NCBI RefSeq assembly: GCF_039534975.1
Contig: NZ_BAAAWH010000001.1
Span: 930,001 to 994,000 of the forward strand
Direction of reading: 5' to 3'
Length of the DNA: 64,000 bases
Source of the DNA: Microbacterium terregens
GTDB taxonomy: Bacteria; Actinomycetota; Actinomycetes; Actinomycetales; Microbacteriaceae
The notes below the pieces were generated by a model that was not told the DNA's origin, did no database searches, and was given only the letters and a program-made list of their open reading frames with translations. A program made the translations under genes and the position numbers. Positions 9,731 to 62,403 of the stretch are shown here, piece by piece. Position 1 is the first letter of the stretch, and each line of letters opens with the position of its first letter.

Positions 9731-10167
9731 GGTCTGCGCGTTTCGTCGGGTTTGGTGTCGCGCTTTTCTTCGTTGCGCGCTTTGCACGGGTTTGGGCTTC
9801 GCCGAGTGCACGGGTTCGCGACGAGTGCACGGGTTCGCGATGCGGACAAGTCGTGCGCTCGGCGGGAAGTCGTGCGCTCGGGGTAGGTGGTGCGCGGGGG
9901 CGTAGGTGGTGCGCTCGGGCTTGAGCGATCGTTCGGTCGCCGCTGTCCAGCTCGCGAGAGTGCATGCCCGGCCCGCGCGAGTGCATGCCCGGCCCGCGAG
10001 AGTGCATGCCCGGCCCGCGAGAGTGCATGCCCGGCCCGCGAGAGTGCATGGCTCGCGTGTGAACACCCGCCCACAGCCATGGTGCGCGGAACCCATTGTG
10101 GGAGCGGGCGTAGAGGGTCACTCTGGGGGAATCAGCGATTCTTTCGAGCGCAGGGAAGGACGAGACG
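9731..10167. other. Repeat-filled gap between glmM and the GYD gene
   Basis: No coding frame here looks real. The gap holds two copies of GAGTGCACGGGTTCGCGA near 9814-9840, several TGCGCTCGGG-like words at 9850-9920, the five-unit array at 9951-10050, and a TCTGGGGGAATC word near 10123 ahead of the next gene. Confidence 0.5.
9951..10050 (+). repeat. Array of 21-bp repeats, core GAGAGTGCATG, five copies
   Basis: GAGTGCATG recurs at 9958, 9979, 10000, 10021 and 10042, exactly 21 bases apart, in units reading CCCGCGAGAGTGCATGCCCGG. All copies have one orientation. The same core, often in the opposite orientation as TGCACTCTCG, recurs in three further arrays in this window. Confidence 0.9.
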
Positions 10168-10494
10168 ATGCCGCTCTACCTGACGAGATTCAGCTACACA
10201 CCCGAGACCTGGCAGCGGCTGGCACAGCATCCCGAGGATCGTCGCACGGCGGCGCGGACGTATATCGAGTCCGTCGGCGGACAGCTGCACGGATTCTGGT
10301 ACGCGTTCGGCAGCCACGACGGATACACGCTGTGGGAAGCGCCCGACAACGTGTCGATGGCGGCGGTGGCCCTGGCGATCGGCAGTGGCGGGGCGATGAG
10401 TTCGTTCGAGACGACGGTGCTCCTCAGCGTCGAAGAGACGCTGGAGGCGCTGGGCAAGGTCGCGCAGGTCAAGTACCGCCAGCCCGGGACCTGA
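10168..10494 (+). CDS. GYD domain protein
   Basis: A protein of 108 residues matching the small GYD family, named for a Gly-Tyr-Asp motif. Here the equivalent is SHDGYTLWEAPDN, preceded by VGGQLHGFWYAFG, with a helix ending in GKVAQVKYRQP. Members fold as ferredoxin-like homodimers, and their biochemical role is unknown. It is monocistronic and sits between two repeat arrays. A possible ribosome binding site (AAGGACGAGACG) lies just upstream of ATG 10168. Confidence 0.8.
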   Translation: MPLYLTRFSYTPETWQRLAQHPEDRRTAARTYIESVGGQLHGFWYAFGSHDGYTLWEAPDNVSMAAVALAIGSGGAMSSFETTVLLSVEETLEALGKVAQVKYRQPGT

Positions 10495-10501
10495 CCCGCT
10501 G

Positions 10502-10726
10502 CTCGCGAGGGTGCAGGTCGTTGCTCGCGAGAGTGCATGTTGCTGCTCGCGAGAGTGCGTGTTGTCGGCACGGGACTTGCCAGTTCAGCGCCGGGGACGT
10601 GCACTCTCGGCATCCGGGACATGCACTCTCGGCGTCGGGGACGTGCACTCTCGGCAGCGGGGCAGGCGGGGACATGCACCCTCGGCAGCGGGACGTGCAC
10701 TCTCGGCAGCGGGGACGTGCACTCTG
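10502..10726. repeat. 22-bp-period repeat array with inverted halves
   Basis: Three forward units (CTCGCGAGAGTGCATG type, 22 bases apart at 10502-10560) are followed, across a central spacer, by six reverse units whose TGCACTCTC cores start at 10600, 10622, 10644, 10675, 10696 and 10718. The array fills the gap between the convergent GYD and membrane-protein genes. The head-to-head layout could fold into hairpins, but the constant two-helical-turn spacing suggests a protein-binding array. Confidence 0.9.
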
Positions 10727-10757
10727 GGCAGCAGGGGGCAGCGAGGGGGAGCGGGGG

Positions 10758-11627
10758 TCAAGGACCGGGGGATGCCGCGGCCCGCCGCAACCGCAACTCC
10801 ATCGCGACGTACAGGGCCAGGTAGCCCACGAACGCGATTCCCAGGAGCGCGAGAAACCCCGGGGTCGCCGGACGGTCCCAGTGCAGCGCGTCGCGGCCGG
10901 CGAACAGGGAGCATCCGATCGCGATCAGGCTCACGAGCTGCGCCTGGAACACGATCCGGAACGAGCTCCACCGGGCATCGCGCAGGAACCACAGCGAGAC
11001 CACGCCCGGCAGCGACAGCACCGCGCCGAGCACCCGGGCGGTCAGCGGAGTCACGTCCCAGGCCCAGAACGGGATCACGAACGTCGGGATGACGAACAGC
11101 ACGACGCCGGTCAGCAGCGACGCGACGCCGACGAGGATCAGCAGCACGCGCACCACCATCGGCACCCGGCTGTCGGGAATCTCGGGCTCCCCGTCATCGC
11201 GCCCGCGCTGCAGCCACATCAACCACGCGGTGACGAACGGCGTCGTGATGTACAGCACGAACCAGGTGTAGAACGACAGGTTCTGCGAGAACCGGTCCAG
11301 GTGCAGCAGCGTCGCGATCAGCAGCGCCGCGGTGAAGACGATCACCGGGGGAAACGCCACGACGACTCGGTGCCACCGGCGTGCGCGCACGATCCGCGCG
11401 AAGACCCAGATGCCGCCGACGTATGCCGAGGCCAGCAGATACGCCGTCAGCGGCGGGGTGATCGGCCACGCGAACAGCTCGCCGGTGCGGTCCGGAAACC
11501 CGAACAGCAGGATGACCGCGATGATCAGGAACGGCAGCAGGAGCAGCGCGACGATCCGCGTGATCCGCAGGACCCGGTCATCGCGCGTCCGCTCCGGACG
11601 CGCGCGTTCAGCGTCGGTCCGTGACAC
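10758..11627 (-). CDS. Polytopic membrane protein
   Basis: A protein of 289 residues with about seven hydrophobic segments and short polar loops, among them ITRIVALLLLPFLIIAVILL near the N-terminus. The start is set at GTG 11627, because the frame before it lies inside the STAND ATPase gene; this leaves a 20-base overlap with that gene and a GAGG sequence about 10 bases upstream. No transporter signature, conserved charged pair or enzyme motif stands out. The overlap implies that it is made together with the ATPase and may be its membrane partner. I do not recognise a family. Confidence 0.6.
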   Translation of the reverse strand: MSRTDAERARPERTRDDRVLRITRIVALLLLPFLIIAVILLFGFPDRTGELFAWPITPPLTAYLLASAYVGGIWVFARIVRARRWHRVVVAFPPVIVFTAALLIATLLHLDRFSQNLSFYTWFVLYITTPFVTAWLMWLQRGRDDGEPEIPDSRVPMVVRVLLILVGVASLLTGVVLFVIPTFVIPFWAWDVTPLTARVLGAVLSLPGVVSLWFLRDARWSSFRIVFQAQLVSLIAIGCSLFAGRDALHWDRPATPGFLALLGIAFVGYLALYVAMELRLRRAAASPGP

Positions 11628-14205
11628 GAGCAAGGACCTCGGAGACGGGGAGGGTTGCGCCCTCTTGGATCGCGGCATCCAGAACCGGTCCCTGACCGGA
11701 CTCGCGGAGTGCCTCGACGAGCGGGCCGGAGAAGGCGAGACCTCCGGGATTGACGAAGCCGATGTGCCGCCGCAGGCGCTGCGCGGCGCCAACCAGCAGC
11801 CCGGTCTGCTCGGCGTTGCGCTGCGCCGCGCGGATCGCCGCGAATCCCTCCAGCCCGTACACGATGCCTTCGTCGTGACGCATCGCCAGCGAGGTGTCCA
11901 GGGCCTCGGCGAAGTCCCGCTCGGCACCGTCGATGTCGCCGGCGAGGAACTTCGGCCAGCCGCGGTGGTGCTGCGCGATGACGACGCCCAGCATCTCTCC
12001 CGCCGACGAGGCCAGCGCGAGGCTCTCGTCGAATCGCGCGGCGGCGGCCGGGACATCCTGCGTCACCATGTCCATCCGTCCGAGCGCGACCAGGATCATC
12101 GCCTGCCCCCACCGGTCACCGGCGTCGCGGAACCCGGTGAGGCCCTGCTCGAGGGCTGCGCGACCGGACGCGAGGTCGGGACCGGTCGGGGCGGACAGGT
12201 ACGCCAGGCCGATCGACACCCGCGTCAGGGCGGCGCTCGCCGGCTCACCGGACTTCTCGAACAGCTCGGCCGCGCGCGCCAACCCGGGCAGCACGTCGAC
12301 GCCGGGATCCTGCCAGTACGTCACGGCGCGGGTGAAGTACAGCGCGATCGCCTCGGTGCGCGGGGTCAGCGCGATGCCGTCGCGCTCGGCCTGCTCCAGC
12401 AGCTCGGCCATCCAATCGCGGACGACCCCGAGCAGCCCTCCGATCCACACGTACATGTACAGCGACCACGCGAAGTCGGCCGCTTCGTCCAGGCGCGACG
12501 TGTCGAGCAGGTGACGCATGACTGCGCCGAGGTTCTCGGTCTCGGCATCCAATTCCCGGATCACGGCGAGCTGATCGGCGGTACGCATGCGCACGGACGC
12601 GTCGCGGGCGACGGACATGTAGTGCGCGACCCAGCGATCCCGCGCCGCGTCGACCGCCTCGACCGTCTCGGGAGCCTTCGCGCGCTCGCGCGCGAAGGCG
12701 CGGACCAGCGCCAGCATCCCGAACACCTGCAGGCCGTCGCGCTCGTGCTGCCAGAGCAGGCTCGTGTCGATCAGCGCCTCCATCGCCGCGACCGCTCCGT
12801 CGCCCTCATCATCGCTCGTGCCGAGGACGGCTTCGGCCGCGACGAAGCTGAACGGGCCGGAGAAGACCGAGAGCGACTCGAAGGCCGCGGTCGCCTCTTC
12901 ATCGAGCAGCCGGACGCTCCACTCGATCGTGCTGCGCACGGCGCGCTGCCGTTCGGGCAGGTCGCGCGCGCCGCCGACGAGGAGGCTCAGTGCGGAATCC
13001 AGCCGCTTGAGGATCTCGCGCGGCGGCATCGTCCGCGTGCGCGCGGCGGCCAGTTCGATCGCGAGCGGCACGCCGTCCAGTGCCCTGACGATGCCGGCGA
13101 CGGACGGCGCCTGATCGGGCGTCATCCGGAACGCGGGGTTGATCGCCATGGCCCGCTCGACGAACAGGGCGACGGCGCTGGCGTTGACGGCATCCGTCGG
13201 GGAAGCATCCGGATCGGGAAGGGTCAGCGGACCCAGTTCGAAGGTGCGCTCGGCCCGCACCCGCAGCGGGGACCGGCTGGTCACCAGCAGCTGCAGGGTC
13301 GGCAGCTCGGTGATGAGGCGGACCAGGTCGCCGGTGGCATCGAGCAGGTGCTCCATGTTGTCCACGACCAGCAGCATGTTCCGGCCGCCGAGCGCGGCGA
13401 GGAGCTTGGTGTCGACGCGTTCCTCACCGGTCTCGCGCACGCCGACGGACCGCGCGATCACGCTCAGCACCCGTTCGGGCGAGGTGAGCGTCTCGAGCAT
13501 GACGAAGGCGACCTCGCGCCCGGTCGCCGCCACCGCACCGGCGACCTCGATCGCCAGGCGCGACTTGCCGATGCCGCCGGGGCCCACGATCGTGACCATA
13601 CGCACGCCGGGGGAGTCGAGCATCTGGAGCAGCTGCTGCTGCTCGTCGACGCGTCCCACCAGCTTGGTGAAGGGCGCCGGGATGCCGCGCCCCGACTCCA
13701 GCTGCGCGGCCGCCGGCGCGGCTCGGGATGCGTCGAACCGGTCGGCGAGCAGGGTCGCCAGGTCGGCGACGATCAGCTGCGCGAGCTCGGCGGGCGTCTC
13801 GAAGGTGCGGTACGAGCTGGTGTCGTCGCTGCGGATGCGCCCGAGCAGCTCGGCCAGCTGCGGTTCGCGGTCGGGCGCGGGGCTCTTGATGTAGATGAGG
13901 TGGGGCAGGTCGCCCGAGAGCAGATACTCGTCCTCGAGGCCCGAGACCTGCTCGTCGTCGGCGGTCCACCCGTAGCTCTGCCAGTACAGCCCGACGAAGA
14001 TGTCGCTCTGCGCGAGGTAGGCGCGGTACAGGGACCGGGGCGGGTGTGGCCGGGCCCCCAGTTCGAACATGACCGGGGCCAGATGAAGTGACTCGATCGC
14101 GGCACGGGCGGCCTCGCGTTCGGGCTCCAGTTCTCGGAGAGTGGAGCTCAGGAACACCCGGATGCGCTGGTCGGGCGTGCGGATCGACGACGCATGAGCG
14201 TCCAT
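11608..14205 (-). CDS. DUF4062-STAND ATPase with C-terminal helical repeats
   Basis: A protein of 865 residues. Residues about 14-110 form a DUF4062 domain (RIRVFLSSTLRELEPERE..., SDIFVGLYWQSYGW), a Rossmann-like module found at the N-terminus of signalling ATPases. A STAND/NB-ARC-type NTPase follows, with Walker A GPGGIGKS near residue 208, Walker B LLVVDN near 279 and a TSRSPL sensor region. The remaining roughly 400 residues are Ala/Leu/Glu-rich and TPR-like, as in the AfsR/LuxR-associated ATPases, but no DNA-binding domain is present. Related architectures act as regulators or as conflict and defence sensors. It shares a 20-base overlap with a polytopic membrane protein downstream. The trigger and output are unknown. 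Confidence 0.8.
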   Translation of the reverse strand: MDAHASSIRTPDQRIRVFLSSTLRELEPEREAARAAIESLHLAPVMFELGARPHPPRSLYRAYLAQSDIFVGLYWQSYGWTADDEQVSGLEDEYLLSGDLPHLIYIKSPAPDREPQLAELLGRIRSDDTSSYRTFETPAELAQLIVADLATLLADRFDASRAAPAAAQLESGRGIPAPFTKLVGRVDEQQQLLQMLDSPGVRMVTIVGPGGIGKSRLAIEVAGAVAATGREVAFVMLETLTSPERVLSVIARSVGVRETGEERVDTKLLAALGGRNMLLVVDNMEHLLDATGDLVRLITELPTLQLLVTSRSPLRVRAERTFELGPLTLPDPDASPTDAVNASAVALFVERAMAINPAFRMTPDQAPSVAGIVRALDGVPLAIELAAARTRTMPPREILKRLDSALSLLVGGARDLPERQRAVRSTIEWSVRLLDEEATAAFESLSVFSGPFSFVAAEAVLGTSDDEGDGAVAAMEALIDTSLLWQHERDGLQVFGMLALVRAFARERAKAPETVEAVDAARDRWVAHYMSVARDASVRMRTADQLAVIRELDAETENLGAVMRHLLDTSRLDEAADFAWSLYMYVWIGGLLGVVRDWMAELLEQAERDGIALTPRTEAIALYFTRAVTYWQDPGVDVLPGLARAAELFEKSGEPASAALTRVSIGLAYLSAPTGPDLASGRAALEQGLTGFRDAGDRWGQAMILVALGRMDMVTQDVPAAAARFDESLALASSAGEMLGVVIAQHHRGWPKFLAGDIDGAERDFAEALDTSLAMRHDEGIVYGLEGFAAIRAAQRNAEQTGLLVGAAQRLRRHIGFVNPGGLAFSGPLVEALRESGQGPVLDAAIQEGATLPVSEVLARVTDRR

Positions 14206-14330
14206 ACGTGAAGTGTGGCGCAGGTGGGTCCGATGCGCCAGGGATGTGGCGGGTTGGGGGGCTGGGTTTTCGCGGGGGTGGGTCGGGGGCTTTCGGGGGG
14301 TTGGTTGTGCGGGGGGCTCGGGTCGGCTGG

Positions 14331-14427
14331 GGGCTCGGGTCAGGCGGAGGCTCGGTGTTGCTGGCGGCCCGGTGTTGCGGGCTCGGGTCAGCGGAGGTCG
14401 GTACTGCGGGGGGCTCGGGTCAGGCGG
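14331..14427 (+). repeat. G-rich repeats GGGCTCGGGTCAGGCGG
   Basis: In the 214-base gap between the phosphatase and STAND genes, GGGCTCGGGTCAGGCGG occurs at about 14331 and 14411, with a shorter copy near 14380. The last copy runs into the phosphatase stop codon. The plus strand has many G-runs and could form quadruplexes. No gene is seen in this gap. Confidence 0.7.
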
Positions 14428-15364
14428 CCGGGGTGCTCCACGACAACGACTCGATGTATCGCAGCAGTACGCCCTCGCGCAGCGCCCACGGCGAGACTTC
14501 GAGTTCTTCCACGTTCAGCGCGGTCATCGCCGTGTGCAGGACGACGGCGGCCGCGACGATCTGGAACGTGCGGTCGGGGGTGATCCCCGGCAGCTCCTGC
14601 CGCGCGGACGCGGGGATGCGCGCCAGCCGCGGAATCCATGCGCCGAGCGCGGCGCGAGGCAACAGCATCCGCTCAATGCTGGACCAGCGACCCACCGGAT
14701 ACCCGGCGAGCTTCGCCAGCGACCGGATCGCCTTCGACGAGCCGACGAAGTGGTCGGGGCGCGGCTGCGCGCGGAACGTGTCGAGCTCGGGCGCGAGGAC
14801 CTGCTTCGCGTGGTCCCGGAGGCGCTCGACCGCGGCTTCGCCGGGCGGGTCGTCGGGCAGGAACTGCACGGTCATGCGTCCCGCGCCCAGGAGGACGGAT
14901 GCCGCGGCCGCGGGGACTTCCTCGGACCCCGCCGCGATCTCGAGCGAGCCGCCGCCGACGTCCAGGAGCAGGATCTGCCCGGCCGCCCAGCCGAACCAGC
15001 GCCGCACGGCGAGGTAGGTGAAGTGGGCCTCGGTCTCGCCGGCCAGCACCTGAAGCGGCTGGCCGAGCGCGGCCTCGATGCGGGCGATCACCGCGGCGCC
15101 GTTCTCGGCCTCGCGGACGGCGGAGGTCGCCGTGGCCAGCAGCTCGTCGACCCGCTCGGTCGCGGCGACCGCGCGGGCTTCGCGCACCGCCTGCTCGAGG
15201 GCGACGATGCCCTCTTCGGTGATGGAGCCGTCCGGGTCGAGGTACCGCATGAGCCGCAGAACCGTGCGCTGGCTGGTGGTCGCGAGCGGACGCCCTCCCG
15301 GTCGCACATCGGCAACGAGCAAGTGGACGGTGTTCGAGCCGATATCGAGAACTCCGAGGCGCAC
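14420..15364 (-). CDS. Ppx/GppA family phosphatase
   Basis: A protein of 314 residues of the exopolyphosphatase / pppGpp phosphohydrolase family, an ASKHA-fold enzyme. Diagnostic motifs are DIGSNTVHL at the N-terminus (phosphate-1 loop) and LLDVGGGSLE near residue 130 (phosphate-2 loop), followed by FLPDDPP and SSKAIRSLAKLAG. The short single-domain length matches actinobacterial Ppx1/Ppx2-type proteins; whether polyphosphate or pppGpp is the main substrate cannot be told. GTG 15364 is taken as start, because the frame upstream runs into the repeat array. It is probably alone or leads the STAND operon, 214 bases away. Confidence 0.85.
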   Translation of the reverse strand: MRLGVLDIGSNTVHLLVADVRPGGRPLATTSQRTVLRLMRYLDPDGSITEEGIVALEQAVREARAVAATERVDELLATATSAVREAENGAAVIARIEAALGQPLQVLAGETEAHFTYLAVRRWFGWAAGQILLLDVGGGSLEIAAGSEEVPAAAASVLLGAGRMTVQFLPDDPPGEAAVERLRDHAKQVLAPELDTFRAQPRPDHFVGSSKAIRSLAKLAGYPVGRWSSIERMLLPRAALGAWIPRLARIPASARQELPGITPDRTFQIVAAAVVLHTAMTALNVEELEVSPWALREGVLLRYIESLSWSTPAA

Positions 15365-15420
15365 GGGGGAAAGCGTAGCGCGGCGCGGGGTCGTGTCCGC
15401 GCGGGTTCCCCCCGGCTGCC

Positions 15421-15527
15421 GAGAGTGCATGTTGCGGCTGCCGAGGGTGCGTGTTGCGGCTGCCGAGGGTGCATGTTGCGGCCGTCGAGGGTGCGTGTTG
15501 CGGCTGCCGAGGGTGCGTGTCGCGGCC
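15421..15527 (+). repeat. 22-bp repeat array, left (forward) half, five units
   Basis: The GTGC of the core sits at 15425, 15447, 15469, 15491 and 15513, exactly 22 bases apart, in units like GCCGAGGGTGCGTGTTGCGG. The right half, in opposite orientation, resumes immediately after the IS3 element at 16891. Confidence 0.9.
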
Positions 15528-15553
15528 GTTGAACCGTCCCCGGTTTGATGCCG
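15528..15553 (+). repeat. IS3 left inverted repeat
   Basis: The 26 bases pair with 16864-16889; the outer 18 positions are identical, then three differ, then TGCCG matches again. Confidence 0.88.
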
Positions 15554-15586
15554 TTTCCTTTCGAGTCTGGAAGGAAGATGTTGATC

Positions 15587-15898
15587 ATGCCGAAGAGGAT
15601 TCCGGAGGAGACGAAGCAGCGAGCGATCCGGCTTGTGCTCGATCACCTCGATGAGTACCCGAACCTGACGACTGCGTGCGAGGCGGTTTCGGCGAGGCTC
15701 GGGTTCGGGGCTGAGTCGCTGCGCCGCTGGGTGCGGCAGGCGCAGATCGACGGGGGCGAGCGCCAGGGGGTGTCCTCGAGTGAGTCGGAGCGGATGCGTC
15801 GGCTCGAGCGGGAGAACCGTGAGTTGCGTGAGGCGAACGCGATTCTGCGGGACGCGGCGGTTTTCTTCGCCGGGGAACTCGACCCCCGACGCCGTTGA
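15587..15898 (+). CDS. IS3 orfA, transposase helix-turn-helix subunit
   Basis: Starting at ATG 15587, nine bases after an AAGGAAG ribosome binding site (the ATG at 15578 is too close to it), this gives 103 residues. The N-terminal half is the HTH_Tnp_1 domain (EETKQRAIRLVLDHL ... SLRRWVRQAQ); the C-terminal half is a Leu-zipper-like coiled coil (RMRRLERENRELREANAIL). The TGA overlaps the TTG start of orfB (TTGA), and orfB is in the -1 frame. A TTTTC stretch at 15861-15865 could serve as a slippery site producing the fused transposase, as in other IS3 members. Confidence 0.88.
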   Translation: MPKRIPEETKQRAIRLVLDHLDEYPNLTTACEAVSARLGFGAESLRRWVRQAQIDGGERQGVSSSESERMRRLERENRELREANAILRDAAVFFAGELDPRRR

Positions 15899-16860
15899 TC
15901 CTCGCGTTCATCGAGGATCAACGCGCCAAAGGCCGCTCGGTCGGGTCGATCTGCAAGGTTCTGCGGGAGCAGGGCGTGCCGGTCGCCGAGCGGACCTATC
16001 GGGCATGGAAACGCGCCCAGCCCAGCAACCGGGACCTCGCGGACGCGGTCATCATCGACGCGATCCGAGCCGCCCGGGTGAACGCGAAGGGCGAGCTGAC
16101 GCCGGAGTCGATGTATGGGCGACGGAAGATGACCGCGCTGCTGCGCCGGCAAGACCTCGCCGTGTCGAAGCGGCAAGTTGACCGACTGATGCGACAGCTG
16201 CAGATCAACGGCCTCGTGCGGGGCAAGGGCGTGCGGACCACCATCCCGGACCGTAACGCCGCGAGGGCGCCTGACCTACTGGACCGCGATTTCACCGCCG
16301 CCGCGCCGAACCGGCAGTGGGTCGCTGACTTCACGTATGTGCGGACGTGGGCCGGGTTCGTCTATGTGTCGTTCGTGATCGACTGCTACTCGAGGGCGGT
16401 CGTCGGCTGGCATGCCGCGACCGTGAAGACGACACCGCTGGTGACCACCGCGCTGCGGATGGGACTGTGGCGCCGTGACCGTGCCGGGCACGGAGTGAAG
16501 GACGGGCTGATCCATCACAGCGACGCCGGCTCACAGTTCACGAGCGTGTCGTTCGCCGAGACGCTCGCCCTCGAGGGCATCGCCGCGTCGATCGGATCGA
16601 TCGGTGACGCATACGACAACGCCCTGGCCGAATCGACCATCGGGCTGTTCAAGAACGAGGCGATCCGCGACGGCTCCCCGTTCCGATCCGGGCCGCTGCG
16701 CACGATCGACGACGTCGAATGGGTCACCACCGACTGGGTCGACTGGTACAACGCGAGACGCCTGCACTCGACCATCGGAGACGTCCCGCCCGAAGAGCTC
16801 GAGGCCGCGTACTACGCTGACCTCGAAACGCCATCCCATCCGGTGATGGAACCCGCATAG
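15895..16860 (+). CDS. IS3 orfB, DDE transposase catalytic subunit
   Basis: A protein of 321 residues from TTG 15895. An HTH_21-like region (about residues 40-110) is followed by a retroviral-integrase-type catalytic core. The triad is visible as Asp145 in WVADFTYV, Asp210 in HHSDAGSQF and Glu246 in DNALAESTIGLFKNE, giving the DDE(35) spacing typical of IS3. The closing WYNARRLHSTIG block is the usual C-terminal signature. Nothing is truncated, so the element is probably active. Production as an orfAB fusion by -1 frameshift is likely, with direct TTG initiation as an alternative. Confidence 0.93.
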   Translation: MILAFIEDQRAKGRSVGSICKVLREQGVPVAERTYRAWKRAQPSNRDLADAVIIDAIRAARVNAKGELTPESMYGRRKMTALLRRQDLAVSKRQVDRLMRQLQINGLVRGKGVRTTIPDRNAARAPDLLDRDFTAAAPNRQWVADFTYVRTWAGFVYVSFVIDCYSRAVVGWHAATVKTTPLVTTALRMGLWRRDRAGHGVKDGLIHHSDAGSQFTSVSFAETLALEGIAASIGSIGDAYDNALAESTIGLFKNEAIRDGSPFRSGPLRTIDDVEWVTTDWVDWYNARRLHSTIGDVPPEELEAAYYADLETPSHPVMEPA

Positions 16861-16863
16861 GAG

Positions 16864-16889
16864 CGGCACAGAACCGGGGACGGTTCAAC
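16864..16889 (-). repeat. IS3 right inverted repeat
   Basis: Reverse complement of the left end with three mismatches; it begins three bases after the orfB stop codon. Confidence 0.88.
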
Positions 16890-16890
16890 C

Positions 16891-16995
16891 TGCACCCTCG
16901 CGAACAACGACCCGCACTCTCGGCAGCAGGGACATGCACTCTCGGCGAGCCGGGACGCACACGCGCGCGAGCCGGGACGCACACGCGCGCGAGCC
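16891..16995 (-). repeat. 22-bp repeat array, right (reverse) half, about five units
   Basis: Cores TGCACCCTCG, CGCACTCTCG and TGCACTCTCG start at 16891, 16913 and 16935; two more diverged units (GACGCACACGCGCGCGAGCC) follow near 16956 and 16978. The period of 21-22 bases matches the left half. The array ends just before the coaA ribosome binding site. Confidence 0.85.
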
Positions 16996-17010
16996 GAGCA
17001 CAGGACACCT

Positions 17011-18012
17011 ATGGATACGATGTTCCAGATGCCCGCCGACGACACCGCCCCCGGAACGACCACCTCTGTCTCGAGCCCTGAGACGCCGGGCGGCTTCTCG
17101 CTCTACCGCGAGATCGACCGCGGGGACTGGTCGCGACTGGCCGCGGGAACGCCGCAGCCGCTGTCCGAGACCGAGATCGTGCAGATCCGCGGCATCGGCG
17201 ACATGCTCGACATGGCCGAAGTGCGCGAGGTCTACCTGCCGCTCAGCCGCCTGCTGAGCCTGTACGCGAACGCGACCAAGCGCCTCGGCGCGGACACGAG
17301 CACGTTCCTCGGCGAGCCGGACACGACGACGCCGTTCGTCGTGGCCGTCGCCGGATCCGTCGCCGTCGGCAAGTCCACCATCGCCCGCCTGCTGCGCGAA
17401 CTGATGAGCCGCTGGCCGGGCACTCCGCGGGTCGAGCTCGTCACCACCGACGGGTTCCTCTACCCCAACGCCGAGCTGAAGCGTCGCGGCCTGATGGAGC
17501 GCAAGGGCTTTCCGGAGTCGTACGACCGCCGCGCCCTCGTGAGCTTCCTCACCGATGTGAAGAGCGGGGCGCCCGAGGCGCGTGCCCCGTTCTACTCGCA
17601 CATGCGCTACGACATCGTGCCGGACGCCCACGTCACCGTGCGGCGCCCCGACGTCGTCATCGTCGAGGGACTGAACGTGCTGCAGCCCTCACCCTCGCCG
17701 AGTGACATCGCGGTGAGCGAGCTGTTCGACTTCTCGATCTACGTGGATGCCGAGACCGACCACATCGCGTCCTGGTTCGTGGATCGGTTCCTGGCGCTGC
17801 GCCGCAGCGCGTTCTCGAACCCCAGTTCCTTCTTCAACGTCTTCTCGCACCTGTCCGACGATCAGGCCGTGCAGACGGCGCTCGGGTTCTGGAACGAGAT
17901 CAACCTGCCGAACCTCGAGGAGAACGTGCTGCCCACCAAGCATCAGGCGACGCTGGTGCTCGAGAAGGGCGCGCGGCACACGGTCCAGCGGGTACTGCTG
18001 CGCAAGCTGTGA
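17011..18012 (+). CDS. coaA: Type I pantothenate kinase
   Basis: A protein of 333 residues that phosphorylates pantothenate, the first committed step to coenzyme A. The P-loop GSVAVGKST is at about residues 115-123, followed by ELVTTDGFLYPNAEL, KGFPESYD, the VEGLNVLQP strand and the C-terminal NLPNLEENVLPTKHQATLVL block, all characteristic of CoaA rather than types II or III. The first roughly 45 residues are a variable extension. ATG 17011 is preceded by ACAGGACACC, a weak ribosome binding site; ATG 17020 is an alternative. The upstream gap carries the 22-bp array split by IS3. Confidence 0.94.
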   Translation: MDTMFQMPADDTAPGTTTSVSSPETPGGFSLYREIDRGDWSRLAAGTPQPLSETEIVQIRGIGDMLDMAEVREVYLPLSRLLSLYANATKRLGADTSTFLGEPDTTTPFVVAVAGSVAVGKSTIARLLRELMSRWPGTPRVELVTTDGFLYPNAELKRRGLMERKGFPESYDRRALVSFLTDVKSGAPEARAPFYSHMRYDIVPDAHVTVRRPDVVIVEGLNVLQPSPSPSDIAVSELFDFSIYVDAETDHIASWFVDRFLALRRSAFSNPSSFFNVFSHLSDDQAVQTALGFWNEINLPNLEENVLPTKHQATLVLEKGARHTVQRVLLRKL

Positions 18013-18025
18013 AAGAACAGCCGAA

Positions 18026-18628
18026 TCAGGATGCCGCGCTCAGGATGCCGTCCACCTCGACGTAGCGCTCGCCGGTGTCCGGGCACACCCACGCACCGGC
18101 CTCGGCCACGAGCGGTTTGCCCGCCCGGCCCACCCATCCGATCCGACGGGCGGGGACTCCGACGACGAGCGCGTAGTCGGGCACGTCCTTGGTGACCACC
18201 GCACCGGCCGCCACCAGCGCCCACGCCCCGACCCGCACCGGGGCGACGCATACCGCGCGGGCGCCGATCGAGGCACCGTCGCCGATCTCGACGCCGACCG
18301 GGTGCCAATCCGCGGCGCTCTTGACCGTGAGATCCGGGTTCGCCGCGCGCGGGAACTCATCGTTCGTCAGCACCGCCGCCGGGCCGATGAACACCCCATC
18401 GCCGAGCACCGCCGGCTCGTAGACCAGCGCGTAGTTCTGCAGTTTGCAGGCGTTGCCGATGGTGACTCCGGGTCCGATGTAGGCACCGCGACCGACGTTG
18501 CAGTCCGCGCCCAGAACGGCTCCTTCGCGCACCTGGGCGAGGTGCCACACGCGCGTTCCCGCGCCGAGCGTGGCGGAGTCGGCCACGTCGGCGGACGCGG
18601 CGGCGAAGGGGGCACGCGGGTCGGTCAT
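18026..18628 (-). CDS. Left-handed beta-helix N-acetyltransferase (WbpD/WlbB-like)
   Basis: A protein of 200 residues built of hexapeptide repeats (AYIGPGVTIGNACKLQNYALVY, ASIGARAVCVAPVRVG) with the VWHLAQVREGAVLG opening typical of WbpD/WlbB. That family acetylates the 3-amino group of UDP-2-acetamido-3-amino-glucuronate. An NDEFPRA segment and a GVPARRIGWVGRAG tail also fit. ATG 18628 lies six bases after AGAAGGG; ATG 18634 would touch that site, so 18628 is preferred. It is divergent from the oxidoreductase-aminotransferase operon at 19171, which would supply its substrate. The exact sugar is inferred from context. Confidence 0.78.
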   Translation of the reverse strand: MTDPRAPFAAASADVADSATLGAGTRVWHLAQVREGAVLGADCNVGRGAYIGPGVTIGNACKLQNYALVYEPAVLGDGVFIGPAAVLTNDEFPRAANPDLTVKSAADWHPVGVEIGDGASIGARAVCVAPVRVGAWALVAAGAVVTKDVPDYALVVGVPARRIGWVGRAGKPLVAEAGAWVCPDTGERYVEVDGILSAAS

Positions 18629-18722
18629 CGGCATCCCTTCTCTGAAAGACGGTCGGCGGACGTTGCTGCTCCGCGACCGCATAACGCTATACTGCACCCG
18701 GGGATATTCGACGGCTGCGCTT

Positions 18723-18740
18723 TCTGGGGATCGCGTGGGG
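18723..18740 (+). promoter_or_regulatory. Tandem TGGGGA motif, 11-bp spacing
   Basis: TCTGGGGATCGCGTGGGG: the two GGGG blocks start at 18726 and 18737, one helical turn apart, as in direct-repeat operators of OmpR-type regulators. The binding protein is unknown. Confidence 0.4.
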
Positions 18741-18810
18741 GGTCGTCGGGTAGATAACACCTGCTGGGGCAGGTGGTTCCATGGCGCTGTCGAACGGAGC
18801 CATGGGCAGT

Positions 18811-18836
18811 CTGGGGAAAAATGGGGATTGGGGAAT
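18811..18836 (+). promoter_or_regulatory. Triple TGGGGA motif
   Basis: GGGGA occurs at 18813, 18823 and 18830 (spacing 10 and 7) in CTGGGGAAAAATGGGGATTG and the bases that follow. Same element type as at 18723, 19141 and 48042. Confidence 0.4.
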
Positions 18837-18920
18837 CCGTCGTTCTCAAGGGGACGACGACGTCGACGGCACGGGTCGTGCCCGCCGCGTACTCGCGCGC
18901 CGCTTACACGCGCGCCGCGA

Positions 18921-19075
18921 CGACGTGCACTCTCGCGAGCGGGGACATGCACTCTCGCGAGCGGGGACGTGCGCTCTCGCGAGCGGAGGCACGCGAACGC
19001 GCCGCCGCGACGACGTGCACTGTCGCGGCCGGGGACGTGCACTCTCGCGAGCGGGGACATGCACTCTCGCGAGCC
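18921..19075 (-). repeat. 22-bp repeat array, six clear units in one orientation
   Basis: TGCAC/TGCGC cores start at 18926, 18948, 18970, 19016, 19038 and 19060. Spacing is 22 bases, except for one 46-base interval that holds a decayed unit. Typical unit: GGGGACATGCACTCTCGCGA. Confidence 0.9.
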
Positions 19076-48072: not shown

Positions 48073-48397
48073 AGATGCGGGCCCCATACCCGCGCGCACA
48101 TCGAAGAGAAGACCTCGTGCCCGACCCCAGATCGGGAGGTCCTACACTGCCGACCCCTCGGCAGTGCACTCTCGGCATCTTGCGATGTCGGATGTGCGGT
48201 TCGAAGCATAGCCCCAAGACCGGCGATCTGTCCCGACTTTTTTCTCACGGGCGGCGTGTCGGGCGTCGTTCCGCGGATCTCGGGCGCCTGGGCGTGCGGC
48301 TCGGGACGGTTCCGGATGCCGAATCCGCGGCCGCGGCATCCGCCCTGTTCCTTCGCACGGGGTCCAGGGGCTATGATGCGAATCGCGAGCACTCCGC
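48073..48397. other. Divergent intergenic stretch
   Basis: About 325 bases between the priming transferase and the LAVTG protein. It contains one TGCACTCTCGG core (48165), a GGCAGTG/CACTGCC inverted pair near 48145-48168, and no convincing gene. Promoters for both directions are expected here. Confidence 0.4.
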
Positions 48398-50982: not shown

Positions 50983-51290
50983 GCGCGAATTGTTCTTCCG
51001 GCGGGTTTTTTCCCGTGGGCGCGCCGGAAAATCGGGTCAACGGACCGCGCGTTCAGCCCGATATGCTCAAAACGCCTCCGTTCGTGCTTCCCCGACTGTC
51101 CCCAGCAGTACCGCGGTTCGCTCCCCAGCGATGCCGCTTCGGGCAGGCTTTTCGGGGGAAGTGGGCCCCCTCGCAGTTTCGTTCCTCACGGACCGGCCGA
51201 GGGGGCCTGCGCCTTCTGCCGCCCGGACCCCGGTGGTGCGACCGGCCGGACCCGGCTTGCGCGGCTGGCTTGGCGTGTTCGGTGGTTCGG
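50983..51290. other. glmS upstream region, no gene
   Basis: Chance coding only. It contains three more TGGGGA copies on the minus strand: CCCC at 51090-51093 and 51100-51103, ten bases apart, and CCCC at 51123-51126. No glmS ribozyme-like structure was recognised. Confidence 0.4.
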
Positions 51291-51430
51291 GCGCGGCATC
51301 CGTGTCCTGGGCGCGGCATTCGTGTCCTGGGTGCGGCATTCGTGTCCTGGGCGCGGCATCCGTGTCCTGGGCGCGGCATTCGTGTCCCGGGCGCGGCATT
51401 CGTGTCCTGGGCGCGGCATCCGTGTCCTGG
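51291..51430 (+). repeat. Seven exact-length 20-bp tandem repeats upstream of glmS
   Basis: The unit GCGCGGCATCCGTGTCCTGG repeats seven times without gaps, with only C/T or C/G changes between copies. The array ends 34 bases before the -10 box of glmS. Twenty bases is about two helical turns. Unrelated in sequence to the 22-bp TGCACTCTCG family. Confidence 0.95.
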
Positions 51431-51463
51431 GCCGCTGCTCAGGATGCACGCACCGCGCGACCG

Positions 51464-53545: not shown

Positions 53546-54751
53546 GTGATCGTCGGGATCGGCGTCGACCTCGTCGACATCGCCCGGTTCGAGCGGACGG
53601 TGGAGCGCACGCCGCGCCTGCTGGACCGCCTCTTCTCGCCCGCGGAGCAGACGCGCTCCCCACGCTCGCTTGCCGCGCGCTACGCCGCGAAGGAGGCGCT
53701 CATCAAGGCCCTCGGCGGTTCGGACGGCGTCCACTGGACCGAGATCGAGATCACGCCGGAGGCCTCCGGTCGGCCCTGGTTCACCCTGACCGGCTCGACC
53801 GCCGCGGTCATCGCCGCGCGCGGCATCACCGGGCTGCACCTGTCGATGTCGCACGATGCCGGCTTCGCGACCGCGTTCGTCGTCGCGGAATCCTCGGGTG
53901 ATGCCGCGGCCCCCAGCGCGGCGAACCCTCCTGTGGCAGCTCGCGCTGCGGCGGGTCCGTATGCCGAGGCCAGCGCTGCCGCGGCACCCGATTCGAGTGG
54001 CGTTGTGGTCTCTGCTGTCGCGGCAGGTGATTCGTCTCGCGGCCCGTCCTCAAACGCGGGCCACGACGCCGAACCCGGGCCGCGAGCCGCGGACGCGGCG
54101 CGGACGTCGGATGCGGGCGCCGGTGGTGTCGCTGGTCCGGATGCCGCGGCCAGCGCTGCCGCGGCATCCGATTCGAGTGGCGTTGTGGCCTCTGCTGTCG
54201 CGGCGGGCGATTCGTCTCGCGACCCGCTCACAAACGCGGGCCACGATGCCGAACCGGGGCCGCGAGCCGCGCACGCGACGCGGACGCCGGATGCGGGCGC
54301 GGGTGGTGTCGCTGGTCCGGATGCCGTGGCCAGCGCTGTCGCGGCATCCGATTCGTCTCGCGGCCCGTCCTCAAACGCGGGCCGCGACGCCGAACCCGGG
54401 CCGCGACCCGCGCACGACGGGCCGCGCGACGCCCGACCCGGCACCGACGAAGCGGTCGCCGCAACGCCGGTCGCGGGTCCGGATGCCGGGGCCAACGCTG
54501 TCGCGGCAGGCGATTCGTCTCGCGGCCCGCTCACAAACGCGGGCCACGACGCGGAACCCGGGCCGCGAGACGCGCAGCACGGGCCGCCCGCCGCGCACGC
54601 CGACCCGCGACCCGCGCACGCCGACTCGCGACCCGCGCACGCGGACCCGCGACCCGCGCACGCCGACCCGCGACCGCCCGCGCAGCCCGACACGCGACCC
54701 GCGCAGCCCGACACCCGGGCCGCGCGCTACGACACGGAGACGCCCGCATGA
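53546..54751 (+). CDS. acpS: Holo-ACP synthase with a long repetitive C-terminal tail
   Basis: A protein of 401 residues from GTG 53546. Residues 1-118 are a normal AcpS: VIVGIGVDLVDIARFER with the metal-binding Asp, RYAAKEALIKALGG with the catalytic Glu, and LHLSMSHDAGFATAFVV. It transfers 4'-phosphopantetheine from CoA to acyl carrier proteins. The remaining roughly 280 residues are far beyond family length: about four imperfect repeats of roughly 55 residues (DSSRGPxSNAGHDAEPGPR, GAGGVAGPDA) and then PAHADPR units, probably disordered. The frame stays open through every repeat and ends in an ATGA overlap with alr. Known carrier substrates in the window include 33021. Confidence 0.85.
   Translation: MIVGIGVDLVDIARFERTVERTPRLLDRLFSPAEQTRSPRSLAARYAAKEALIKALGGSDGVHWTEIEITPEASGRPWFTLTGSTAAVIAARGITGLHLSMSHDAGFATAFVVAESSGDAAAPSAANPPVAARAAAGPYAEASAAAAPDSSGVVVSAVAAGDSSRGPSSNAGHDAEPGPRAADAARTSDAGAGGVAGPDAAASAAAASDSSGVVASAVAAGDSSRDPLTNAGHDAEPGPRAAHATRTPDAGAGGVAGPDAVASAVAASDSSRGPSSNAGRDAEPGPRPAHDGPRDARPGTDEAVAATPVAGPDAGANAVAAGDSSRGPLTNAGHDAEPGPRDAQHGPPAAHADPRPAHADSRPAHADPRPAHADPRPPAQPDTRPAQPDTRAARYDTETPA
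53926..54740 (+). repeat. Tandem repeats inside the acpS tail
   Basis: Roughly 160-185-bp units, each containing GATTCGTCTCGCGGCCCG or GACCCG, a CAAACGCGGGCCACGACGCC-like block and GGTCCGGATGCC, recur four times. They are followed by a 15-bp CCGCGCACGCCGACCCGCGA-type repeat at about 54590-54680. Confidence 0.85.
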
Positions 54752-61299: not shown

Positions 61300-62403
61300 A
61301 TGGCTGCTGACGATAACGTCAACGTTCTGGGACTCCAGACCAACATCGACGACTCGGTCGAGGTCAACGACAACGTCGTGGGCAACGACGACAACAACAT
61401 CGGTAACGACGACAACGTGGTCGGCAACGACGACAACAACATCGGTAACGACGACAACGTGGTCGGCAACGACGACAACAACATCGGTAACGACGTTCTG
61501 TCGCACAACACCGACAACACGGACAACACGAACAACTCGACCAACATCGCCACGGCGGTCGCTGACTCGGGCAACGAGGCCAACGGGAACTTCTCGGGCA
61601 ACCTCTCGGGTAACGACAACTCGGACAACTCGGACAACTCCGACAACTCCGACAACTCCGACAACTCCGACAACTCGGACAACTCGGTCAACACCGACGC
61701 CTCGGTGAACGGCATCGCCAACAACTCCGACAACTCCGAGACCGACAACTCGGTTGACAACTCGGTGAACGGCATCGCCAACAACTCCGACAACTCGGAG
61801 AGCTACACCAACTCGTTCAACACCCAGATCCTCAACGACAACTCGGTATCGGCTGGCATCCGCCAGTACAACACCGGCTTCGGTGACTTCAACCTGGGTG
61901 GCCTGGGCGGCGCGGGCCTCGGCGGTGGCGACTTCACGTTGGCGCTCGACAACCGCAGCACCATCGTCGACCAGTCCGTCAACCAGAACATCGACACCGG
62001 TGGCGGCTTCGCCAGCGGCAACGTGATCCAGGGCTTCGAGAATGAGGCACAGACGGCATCGGGCGACCAGGCTGTCGCCGCCGGTGACGACGCGAACGTC
62101 GACAACTCGGTCACGAACATCGAGGTCGGCGACGTGTGGATCGGCAACGAGTGGAACACCACGTCGATCAGCGACTCCTTCCAGGACAACTCGGTCAACA
62201 CCGACGCCTCCACGAACACGCTGATCAACGACTCGTTCAAGGACTTCTCGGACAACTACGACGTTGACGTCGAGGTCGAGGACTCGTTCAACGACGAGTG
62301 GTCTTCGGAGGTCGACATCGACACCGAGCTCGAGTGGGAGAACAGCGGCAACTTCTTCAGCCCCGGCAGCGCTGCCACCGGTGGCGAGAACCTCGACTTC
62401 TAA
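61300..62403 (+). CDS. Asn/Asp/Ser-repeat protein, iniB-like position
   Basis: A protein of 367 residues from ATG 61300, behind an AAAGGA ribosome binding site at 61287-61292. It is very acidic and almost free of Lys and Cys. Residues about 28-65 hold three copies of a 14-residue unit (GNDDNNIGNDDNVV); residues 107-130 repeat NSD; later come NGIANNSDNSE copies, then a Gly/Leu-rich segment and a SFQDNSVNTDAS region. Such repeats suggest a beta-helical or amyloid-like fold. There is no signal peptide, sorting signal or membrane helix. A dynamin-like gene follows, as iniA follows the Gly/Asn-rich iniB in mycobacteria; homology to IniB is not proven. Confidence 0.65.
   Translation: MAADDNVNVLGLQTNIDDSVEVNDNVVGNDDNNIGNDDNVVGNDDNNIGNDDNVVGNDDNNIGNDVLSHNTDNTDNTNNSTNIATAVADSGNEANGNFSGNLSGNDNSDNSDNSDNSDNSDNSDNSDNSVNTDASVNGIANNSDNSETDNSVDNSVNGIANNSDNSESYTNSFNTQILNDNSVSAGIRQYNTGFGDFNLGGLGGAGLGGGDFTLALDNRSTIVDQSVNQNIDTGGGFASGNVIQGFENEAQTASGDQAVAAGDDANVDNSVTNIEVGDVWIGNEWNTTSISDSFQDNSVNTDASTNTLINDSFKDFSDNYDVDVEVEDSFNDEWSSEVDIDTELEWENSGNFFSPGSAATGGENLDF
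61381..61494 (+). repeat. 42-bp perfect coding repeat
   Basis: The 42-base unit beginning GGCAACGACGACAACAACAT starts at 61381, 61423 and 61465, with the third copy incomplete. A 9-base AACTCGGAC/AACTCCGAC repeat runs at about 61617-61690. Near-perfect repeats mark a site open to slippage. Confidence 0.9.

Follow-up and report, generated by a model that had tools for sequence, protein, structure and literature searches.

Oriented repeat arrays in Microbacterium and a candidate partner protein with AbiEi-like and Vsr-like parts

The window analysed here, a stretch of 64,000 nucleotides from Microbacterium terregens (genome G000), carries arrays of a short oriented repeat in four gaps between genes. 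A preliminary description of this DNA had reported about 28 units in these gaps, and our scan for the core CGAGRGTGC, with one mismatch allowed, counted 28 (F5, F3, R6, F5, R3 and R6), where F denotes a core on the + strand and R a core on the - strand. We call these class-1 units. The arrays are real: the one-mismatch pattern matches 29 times in the window as against 6.9 ± 2.6 times in dinucleotide shuffles, with 0 of 100 shuffles reaching 29, so the core is commoner than composition predicts. The features of the locus are as follows, with the class-1 arrays taken from the core scan.

9803..9880, no strand assigned: class-2 element, four 10-bp sites in 78 bp, two F then two R, arranged CGAGTGCACG-9-CGAGTGCACG-20-CGTGCGCTCG-9-CGTGCGCTCG
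9955..10047, + strand: class-1 array of 5 F units, period 21, 3' of a gene that we take to be phosphoglucosamine-mutase-like (glmM)
10506..10558, + strand: class-1 array of 3 F units, immediately 3' of a GYD-domain gene
10601..10727, - strand: class-1 array of 6 R units opposing the F arm at 10506..10558, in a convergent gap
15420..15516, + strand: class-1 array of 5 F units forming the left arm of an F-R pair; the flanking genes are presumed to be ppx-like and coaA-like
15530..16887, + strand: IS3-type insertion sequence with ends TGAACCGTCC...GGACGGTTCA, transposase ORF 15895-16860, Pfam rve and HTH_21 matches
16892..16944, - strand: class-1 array of 3 R units, right arm, with two more, degenerate units reaching about 16995
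18927..19069, - strand: class-1 array of 6 R units, in a divergent gap

The spacing of 21 or 22 bases first described holds throughout the arrays except for one step of 31 and one of 46 bases. The array at 15421-16995 had been given as five forward units, an IS3 and five reverse units; the forward arm and the insertion are borne out, but the reverse arm consists of three clear units and two degenerate ones. The insertion sits between the two arms, and in the relative G174 the same gap holds F3 and R5 without it. A lone core had also been noted at 48165, and its position is indeed solitary. However, because it is isolated and further single cores occur elsewhere in the window, we take it to be a chance match and not a member of an array.

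Other repeats lie in the window as well. At 51289-51432 a 20-bp unit (GGGCGCGGCATTCGTGTCCT) is repeated in tandem about seven times, with a similar period but without the class-1 core, nested repeats of 9, 21, 42 and 60 bp occupy 61367-61799, and about two copies of a 180-bp repeat with 91% matches are found at 53954-54355. Two genes from the convergent array, a gene with DUF4062 and NB-ARC/AAA-type ATPase parts (11608-14205) may encode a defence or regulator protein.

The 78-bp element at 9803-9880 was absent from the preliminary description and shares its gap with the array at 9955-10047. Its unit, CGAGYGCACG, recurs with a 19-bp period in a rigid layout of two F sites, 20 bp and two R sites. 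Among 21 such elements fetched, 19 measure 78 bp and two measure 79 bp, under a pattern that allowed 72-84 bp. Spaced pairs of the class-2 unit occur, among the matches listed, in 36 of 198 sampled genomes of the genus, some of them by one pair only, and the inner-pair pattern occurs in 6 of 297 genomes of the order, four of the six belonging to the genus. In the loci scanned, F-then-R matches within 60 bp number 55, as against three R-then-F, with several matches per element. The linkers show no covariation, and pairing is about as frequent as column composition predicts. In three draft genomes (G060, G077 and G143), four class-2 pairs are no more than about 110 bases from the end of a contig, which hints that these repeats break assemblies.

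The whole-genome core search proposed in the preliminary description shows that class-1 units are dispersed. Exact TGCACTCTCG occurs 61 times in the 3.57 Mb of G000, compared with four occurrences of the same pattern reversed, and a looser spaced-pair pattern gives 91 matches against 14. Apart from a few lone cores, the copies cluster at ten places on contig C1, between 180 kb and 3403 kb. Among the matches listed, 6 of the 198 genus genomes hold class-1 arrays in number, although these six are not phylogenetically independent (G000 groups with G174, and G086 with G051, on the protein tree described below). The largest number, at least 259 spaced pairs, is found in G121. Another 14 of the 198 genomes have one to three matches among those listed, two of them adjacent in G112, and the rest of the 297 sampled genomes of the order have at most three each. 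The core and its F-R order also appear, among the matches listed, in two Intrasporangium genomes and M. lacus; other named genomes have arrays or chance matches. Tandem 21-22 bp arrays containing CGAGAGTGC are also present in metagenome-assembled genomes of Prevotellaceae and Bacteroidaceae (L092, L108 and similar loci), those of Prevotellaceae additionally holding a GAGTGCGCACTC palindrome, and we suspect that these Bacteroidota arrays share the class-1 core by chance.

This distribution bears on the earlier suggestion of plasmid iterons, parS-like arrays or another segregation, anchoring or nucleoid site. The oriented 21-22 bp spacing would suit such a role, as would the position of all ten places, which, on a 3.5-Mb contig closed to a circle, would be no farther than about 0.89 Mb from dnaA. 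Nevertheless, the arrays are patchy within the genus, the copies in G121 are spread along the chromosome, some arrays lie inside coding genes, and a 271-bp query (window 9790-10060) found no match in phage or plasmid collections. An iteron array would be expected at an origin with a Rep gene; the nearest of the ten places is about 177 kb from dnaA, and no Rep gene was recognised among the listed flanking genes, inspected by eye and in part scanned against Pfam. We therefore consider a segregation, replication or nucleoid site very improbable.

The polarity of the arrays is fixed. In the pooled fetched loci of the six class-1 genomes, all 43 gaps with both arms have F followed by R, so that CGAG is outermost, and a further 15 gaps carry F only and 15 carry R only. 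Flanking genes differ in orientation, as originally reported, with arrays at convergent, tandem and divergent gaps alike, and the F-then-R order is independent of that orientation. A relaxed scan of the fetched loci printed no R-then-F junction within 150 bp. The CIRCE operator of HrcA, GCACTC-N9-GAGTGC, has the inverted R-then-F order, and an identity with it was rejected on the order of the 43 gaps and on the junction scan. A replication-strand polarity, with + arrays only beyond 0.9 Mb, was likewise rejected, since F-R pairs occur all along.

The geometry at the centres of these pairs is also restricted. In G121, 21 of 35 junctions have a centre of 8 bp (10 junctions) or 19 bp (11 junctions), and of the remaining 14, five arise artefactually where relaxed cores overlap; in Intrasporangium, 4 of 7 junctions have 8 or 19 bp of different sequence, one of them depending on a relaxed core. 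These spacers lend mild help to the earlier argument that units two helical turns apart present their cores on the same face of the DNA. However, strict two-turn phasing is not a rule of the family, because the related 78-bp element has a 19-bp period.

Linker sequences indicate how the arms grow. Linker identity is 0.54 between the arms of one gap, as against 0.58 for F-R pairs between gaps, and it reaches 0.73 for adjacent F units. Because arms of the same gap are unlike and neighbouring F units alike, local tandem duplication appears to lengthen arms, and no long hairpin is maintained. Such duplication could be taken to mean that the arrays are neutral minisatellites produced by slippage, their likeness being due to chance or to local duplication only. 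Yet slippage does not give the same core, a fixed polarity, a linker consensus that holds species-wide across dispersed places or a clade-specific partner gene, and this explanation is highly unlikely.

Alternatively, the repeats might act in RNA at the 3' ends of genes, as bidirectional terminators or mRNA stabilisers, with any protein link a side issue. F arms often lie 3' of + genes, and R arms before the stop of - genes, in both cases at a distance of at most a few tens of bases. Convergent gaps are enriched in G121, making up 19 of 38 array gaps but 12 of 58 background gaps at least 80 bp long (Fisher p 0.004), while divergent gaps (6 of 38 versus 17 of 58, p 0.15) do not differ significantly; genes were called by our own codon-usage script, and individual calls may be wrong. 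Some elements also fold better than shuffled sequences, namely one class-2 element (z -8.2) and class-1 arrays of other species (Leucobacter, z -6.0, and two near -2.9). The class-1 arrays of G000, however, fold no better than shuffles (z 0.7, 0.2 and -1.4), F and R linkers are mismatched, arrays also occur in divergent gaps and within ORFs, and an RNA role would leave unexplained the link between motif and protein clade shown below. The window has no Rfam match at gathering thresholds. A primary role in RNA is thus improbable, whereas a side effect on gene 3' ends, such as termination or insulation, is possible, as is a regulatory role.

Sixteen array clusters lie outside clear gaps, and some of these may be gene-call artefacts. 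Several intragenic arrays translate in frame as seven-residue repeats, and three enzymes are interrupted in this way, the insertions being absent from solved homologues in the alignments shown. A copper ATPase carries an in-frame insertion (residues 482 to 541 of the query align with 458 to 466 of 3j09), a GH20 hexosaminidase carries another (88 to 135 opposite 67 to 73 of 7bwg), and a maltooligosyl trehalose synthase has two arrays inserted relative to 6lcu. The comparison of gaps in related species that the preliminary description called for covered the ppx-coaA gap: apart from G174, class-1 arrays are absent there from all 29 other coaA loci fetched, in 21 of which ppx adjoins coaA, and one of the 29, in G018, has an F-R pair on the opposite side of coaA. 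The presence of arrays in many gaps and inside enzyme genes makes them look selfish. A selfish repeat was among the possibilities raised at first, and it fits best when joined with another of them, a dedicated protein.

A candidate for that protein is encoded about 70 kb before the window (C1:858,933-859,871; 313 aa). Its gene is flanked by class-1 arrays, F on the left and R on the right, and we singled it out because arrays bracket the gene or its orthologue in four genomes (G000, G174, G086 and G051). The N-terminal part resembles AbiEi, and it is fused to a C-terminal domain whose fold is predicted to be like that of the nucleases Vsr and I-Bth0305I; the nuclease-like residues are invariant. 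Pfam and NCBIfam give the protein no name. No AbiEii partner was found among nine neighbouring proteins scanned at five loci. In four genomes a small MT0933-antitoxin-like gene (L035:2872-3090 and orthologues) adjoins the class-1 partner gene, with arrays between or around them.

Homologues were sought in 28 genomes of our choosing, six with class-1 arrays and 22 others, six of which have class-2 elements in number. The close clade of the partner is present in 6 of 6 class-1 genomes and in 0 of the 22 others. Best matches in the class-1 genomes have 48-100% identity; outside them the best, in G013, reaches 47% on a sister branch with a different motif, and none of the others exceeds 42%. The top homologue of five class-1 genomes lies between class-1 F units and R units, one kind to each side, except that in G121 R units occur on the F side too; in G018 the flanking units share GTGCACTCG with that genome's class-1 unit. 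Class-2 elements or sites adjoin paralogues in G000, G174, G029, G127, G075 and G047, and one paralogue clade pairs with the rigid 78-bp element. Among the 35 loci available, none showed a partner gene from Intrasporangium. Neighbouring genes are conserved within most clades, from which we conclude that the partner gene is mainly inherited vertically; the class-1 gene of G121 is an exception, lying elsewhere beside an IMP dehydrogenase gene. G121 also has nineteen extra DnaA-domain matches, mostly in near-identical groups of 273-280 aa, which we guess are IstB-type genes of expanded insertion sequences.

The repeat motif follows the protein clade in all but two cases. An unbiased search for 9-mers common to both 350-bp flanks separated 44 homologues from 35 control genes (p 5e-12), although the controls were few and their flanks may be less intergenic; two class-1 loci, in G086 and G051, reach a score of just 2, and part of their arrays lies farther out. 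Fifteen motifs were derived from the scans. When at least four copies in total and at least one per side are required, 33 of 45 homologue loci are flanked on both sides by their own motif, compared with 0 of 28 coaA control loci. Because the flanks supplied these motifs and were then used to count them, the coaA control, the protein tree and clusters away from the gene serve as guards. The motifs include CGAGATGGT, CGAGTCAA, CGAGACTGC, CGAGAGAAC, CGAGCGGGC, GAGTATTCG, GAGTGGCCA and a GGGGCG group, and the table of motif by locus is nearly block diagonal.

The protein tree takes in 45 of the 61 listed matches. Under labels given by hand, each of the six motifs shared by at least two loci is monophyletic on it; some of these labels (L323, L327, L351 and L357) were settled after the first tree, and the loci of a 41-bp GGGCGCGTA repeat were merged into the GGGGCG group. 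Mechanical labels, available for 34 of 46 loci, leave GGGGCG (9 loci), CGAGCGGGC (3), CGAGAGAAC (2) and class 2 (5, among labelled tips) monophyletic, and the distance between loci of the same motif is 1.04; the null averages 2.34, and none of 5000 shuffles gave so low a value. Protein clade and motif are thus coupled, with two exceptions. Class 1 is not monophyletic, as L320, a distant paralogue in G121 (C1:1,797,300-1,802,400), is flanked by elements with the class-1 9-bp core at a 19-bp period, and L331 and L342 both carry CGAGACCCC.

Eight other motifs were tested in stretches of three genomes, and six of them also cluster away from the gene. Matches against the reversed control were 20 to 2 for CGAGATGGT, 9 to 0 for CGAGTCAA, 10 to 3 for AGCCGCATA, 12 to 7 for GAGTGGCCA, 13 to 3 and 6 to 5 for GGGCGCGTA, and 19 to 0 in one 200-kb stretch and 0 to 0 in another for GAGTATTCG; GAGACGAAT (2 to 0) and CGAGAGAAC (4 to 0) formed no clusters in the stretches tested. 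Mixed-orientation clusters of these further motifs run F first, L348 having two such elements in a row, although the strand named F was set by us once per motif, so the first cluster of each is no test. At L339 and L345, the nuclease-like gene is flanked by GGGCGCGTA with a 41-bp period in direct, not inverted, order, and in G025 the 41-bp-period motif is present also away from that gene.

One way to account for this association is that the sites are operators of an AbiEi-type regulator, whose gene autoregulates through its flanking sites while dispersed copies form a regulon or help to lay out the chromosome. The AbiEi-like N-terminal part and the sites adjoining the gene agree with this, and the four 10-bp sites of fixed geometry with non-covarying linkers suggest protein-bound DNA. 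Also in its favour, the centre spacers, 8 or 19 bp, differ by 11 bp. Against it stand the position of sites on both sides of the gene, the arrays elsewhere in gaps that are often convergent (as in G121) or inside enzyme genes, and the invariance of the nuclease-like residues, and we regard this explanation as unlikely. The arrays are instead probably non-autonomous copies of an oriented repeat family partnered by the chromosomal AbiEi-like and Vsr/homing-endonuclease-like gene. The dedicated DNA-binding protein first proposed thus has a candidate, bracketed by F and R arrays. The coupling of protein clade and repeat, dispersal, F-then-R polarity, in-frame insertion and tandem growth are direct observations, and we infer that the partner protein binds, cuts and spreads its motif. 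In such a mechanism, the N-terminal domain would recognise the motif, the nuclease-like domain would nick or cut at or near its sites, repair copying would insert repeats and tandem duplication would lengthen the arrays. Descent of every arm from a two-armed element that had CGAG at its outer ends would account for the fixed polarity.

More tentatively, these systems may form a new class of selfish repeat-nuclease pairs, an AbiEi-plus-Vsr-like family with a readable protein-to-motif code, in which each paralogue would cut or nick its own oriented half-sites and so spread polarity-locked units, as many as hundreds of them, across intergenic sequence and even, in frame, into conserved enzymes. 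It looks like a partnership of repeat and enzyme of a new sort, and no connection of such repeats with these motifs, or with proteins of AbiEi, Vsr or DUF559 type, was seen in what could be consulted of the open-licence PMC literature. The system offers an explanation for odd seven-residue repeats in enzyme genes and for unexplained oriented arrays in high-GC genomes. Moreover, about a dozen motifs, several of them matched to protein clades, constitute a natural data set for decoding how the domain reads DNA.

Several known systems share parts of this arrangement. AbiE toxin-antitoxin systems have the AbiEi-like domain, but here no AbiEii is among the nine neighbours scanned at five loci, and a nuclease-like C-terminal domain is found instead. 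I-Bth0305I (EDxHD) and Vsr resemble the predicted C-terminal fold, whereas the present protein adds an AbiEi-like N-terminal part and sits in ordinary intergenic loci between arrays. Selfish behaviour has been proposed for COG4636 (PMC551604), which is another family, of PD-(D/E)XK type. The BrickBuilt MITE of Porphyromonas gingivalis, in the available part of its report, comprises 19 intergenic elements of 23-nt tandem units, with a leader and a tail with terminal repeats and no dedicated protein in that description (PMC4596501). Its short tandem intergenic units are similar, but their sequence is unrelated, and identity with BrickBuilt was rejected for that reason. Rickettsia palindromic elements insert in frame into protein genes, as class-1 arrays do, but differ in unit size, sequence and the nuclease-like partner. 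Enterobacterial BIMEs are mosaics of inverted units enriched at 3' ends and in convergent gaps, a likeness that does not extend to core, tag or partner, and the arms here are polarity-locked arrays.

The closest resemblance is to REP/REPIN sequences and their RAYT genes. In both, short inverted units with a short motif at the outer end are dispersed, for the most part between genes, and repeats flank a protein gene; RAYT genes, too, are largely vertical and chromosomal. Insertion sequences are seen to land in REP sequences (PMC1525189, in the part available), as the IS3-type element does in the window. The REP palindrome tag is GTAG or CGTC in the accessible text of PMC3733652, whereas the class-1 consensus starts with CGAG, in part by construction because the core was the search key; CGAG is the outer tag in many of the motif families. 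RepRanger, in what is available of PMC12306157, makes no mention of Microbacterium or of tandem arrays. The Y1 (HUH) RAYT transposase (PF01797) was found in 0 of the 28 genomes and in 5 of 14 control genomes; the partner here is the AbiEi-like and Vsr-like protein, and the arms grow into long oriented tandem arrays. To our knowledge, Y1 transposases are so far the only proteins with which REP-type repeats have been paired. The existence of another such family, unrelated to these and with its own repeats, would show a different route to dispersed palindromes. Dispersed inverted units and a protein gene flanked by them, as in REP and RAYT, are present here with a different protein, and we read this system as REP/RAYT-like but built on an unrelated enzyme.
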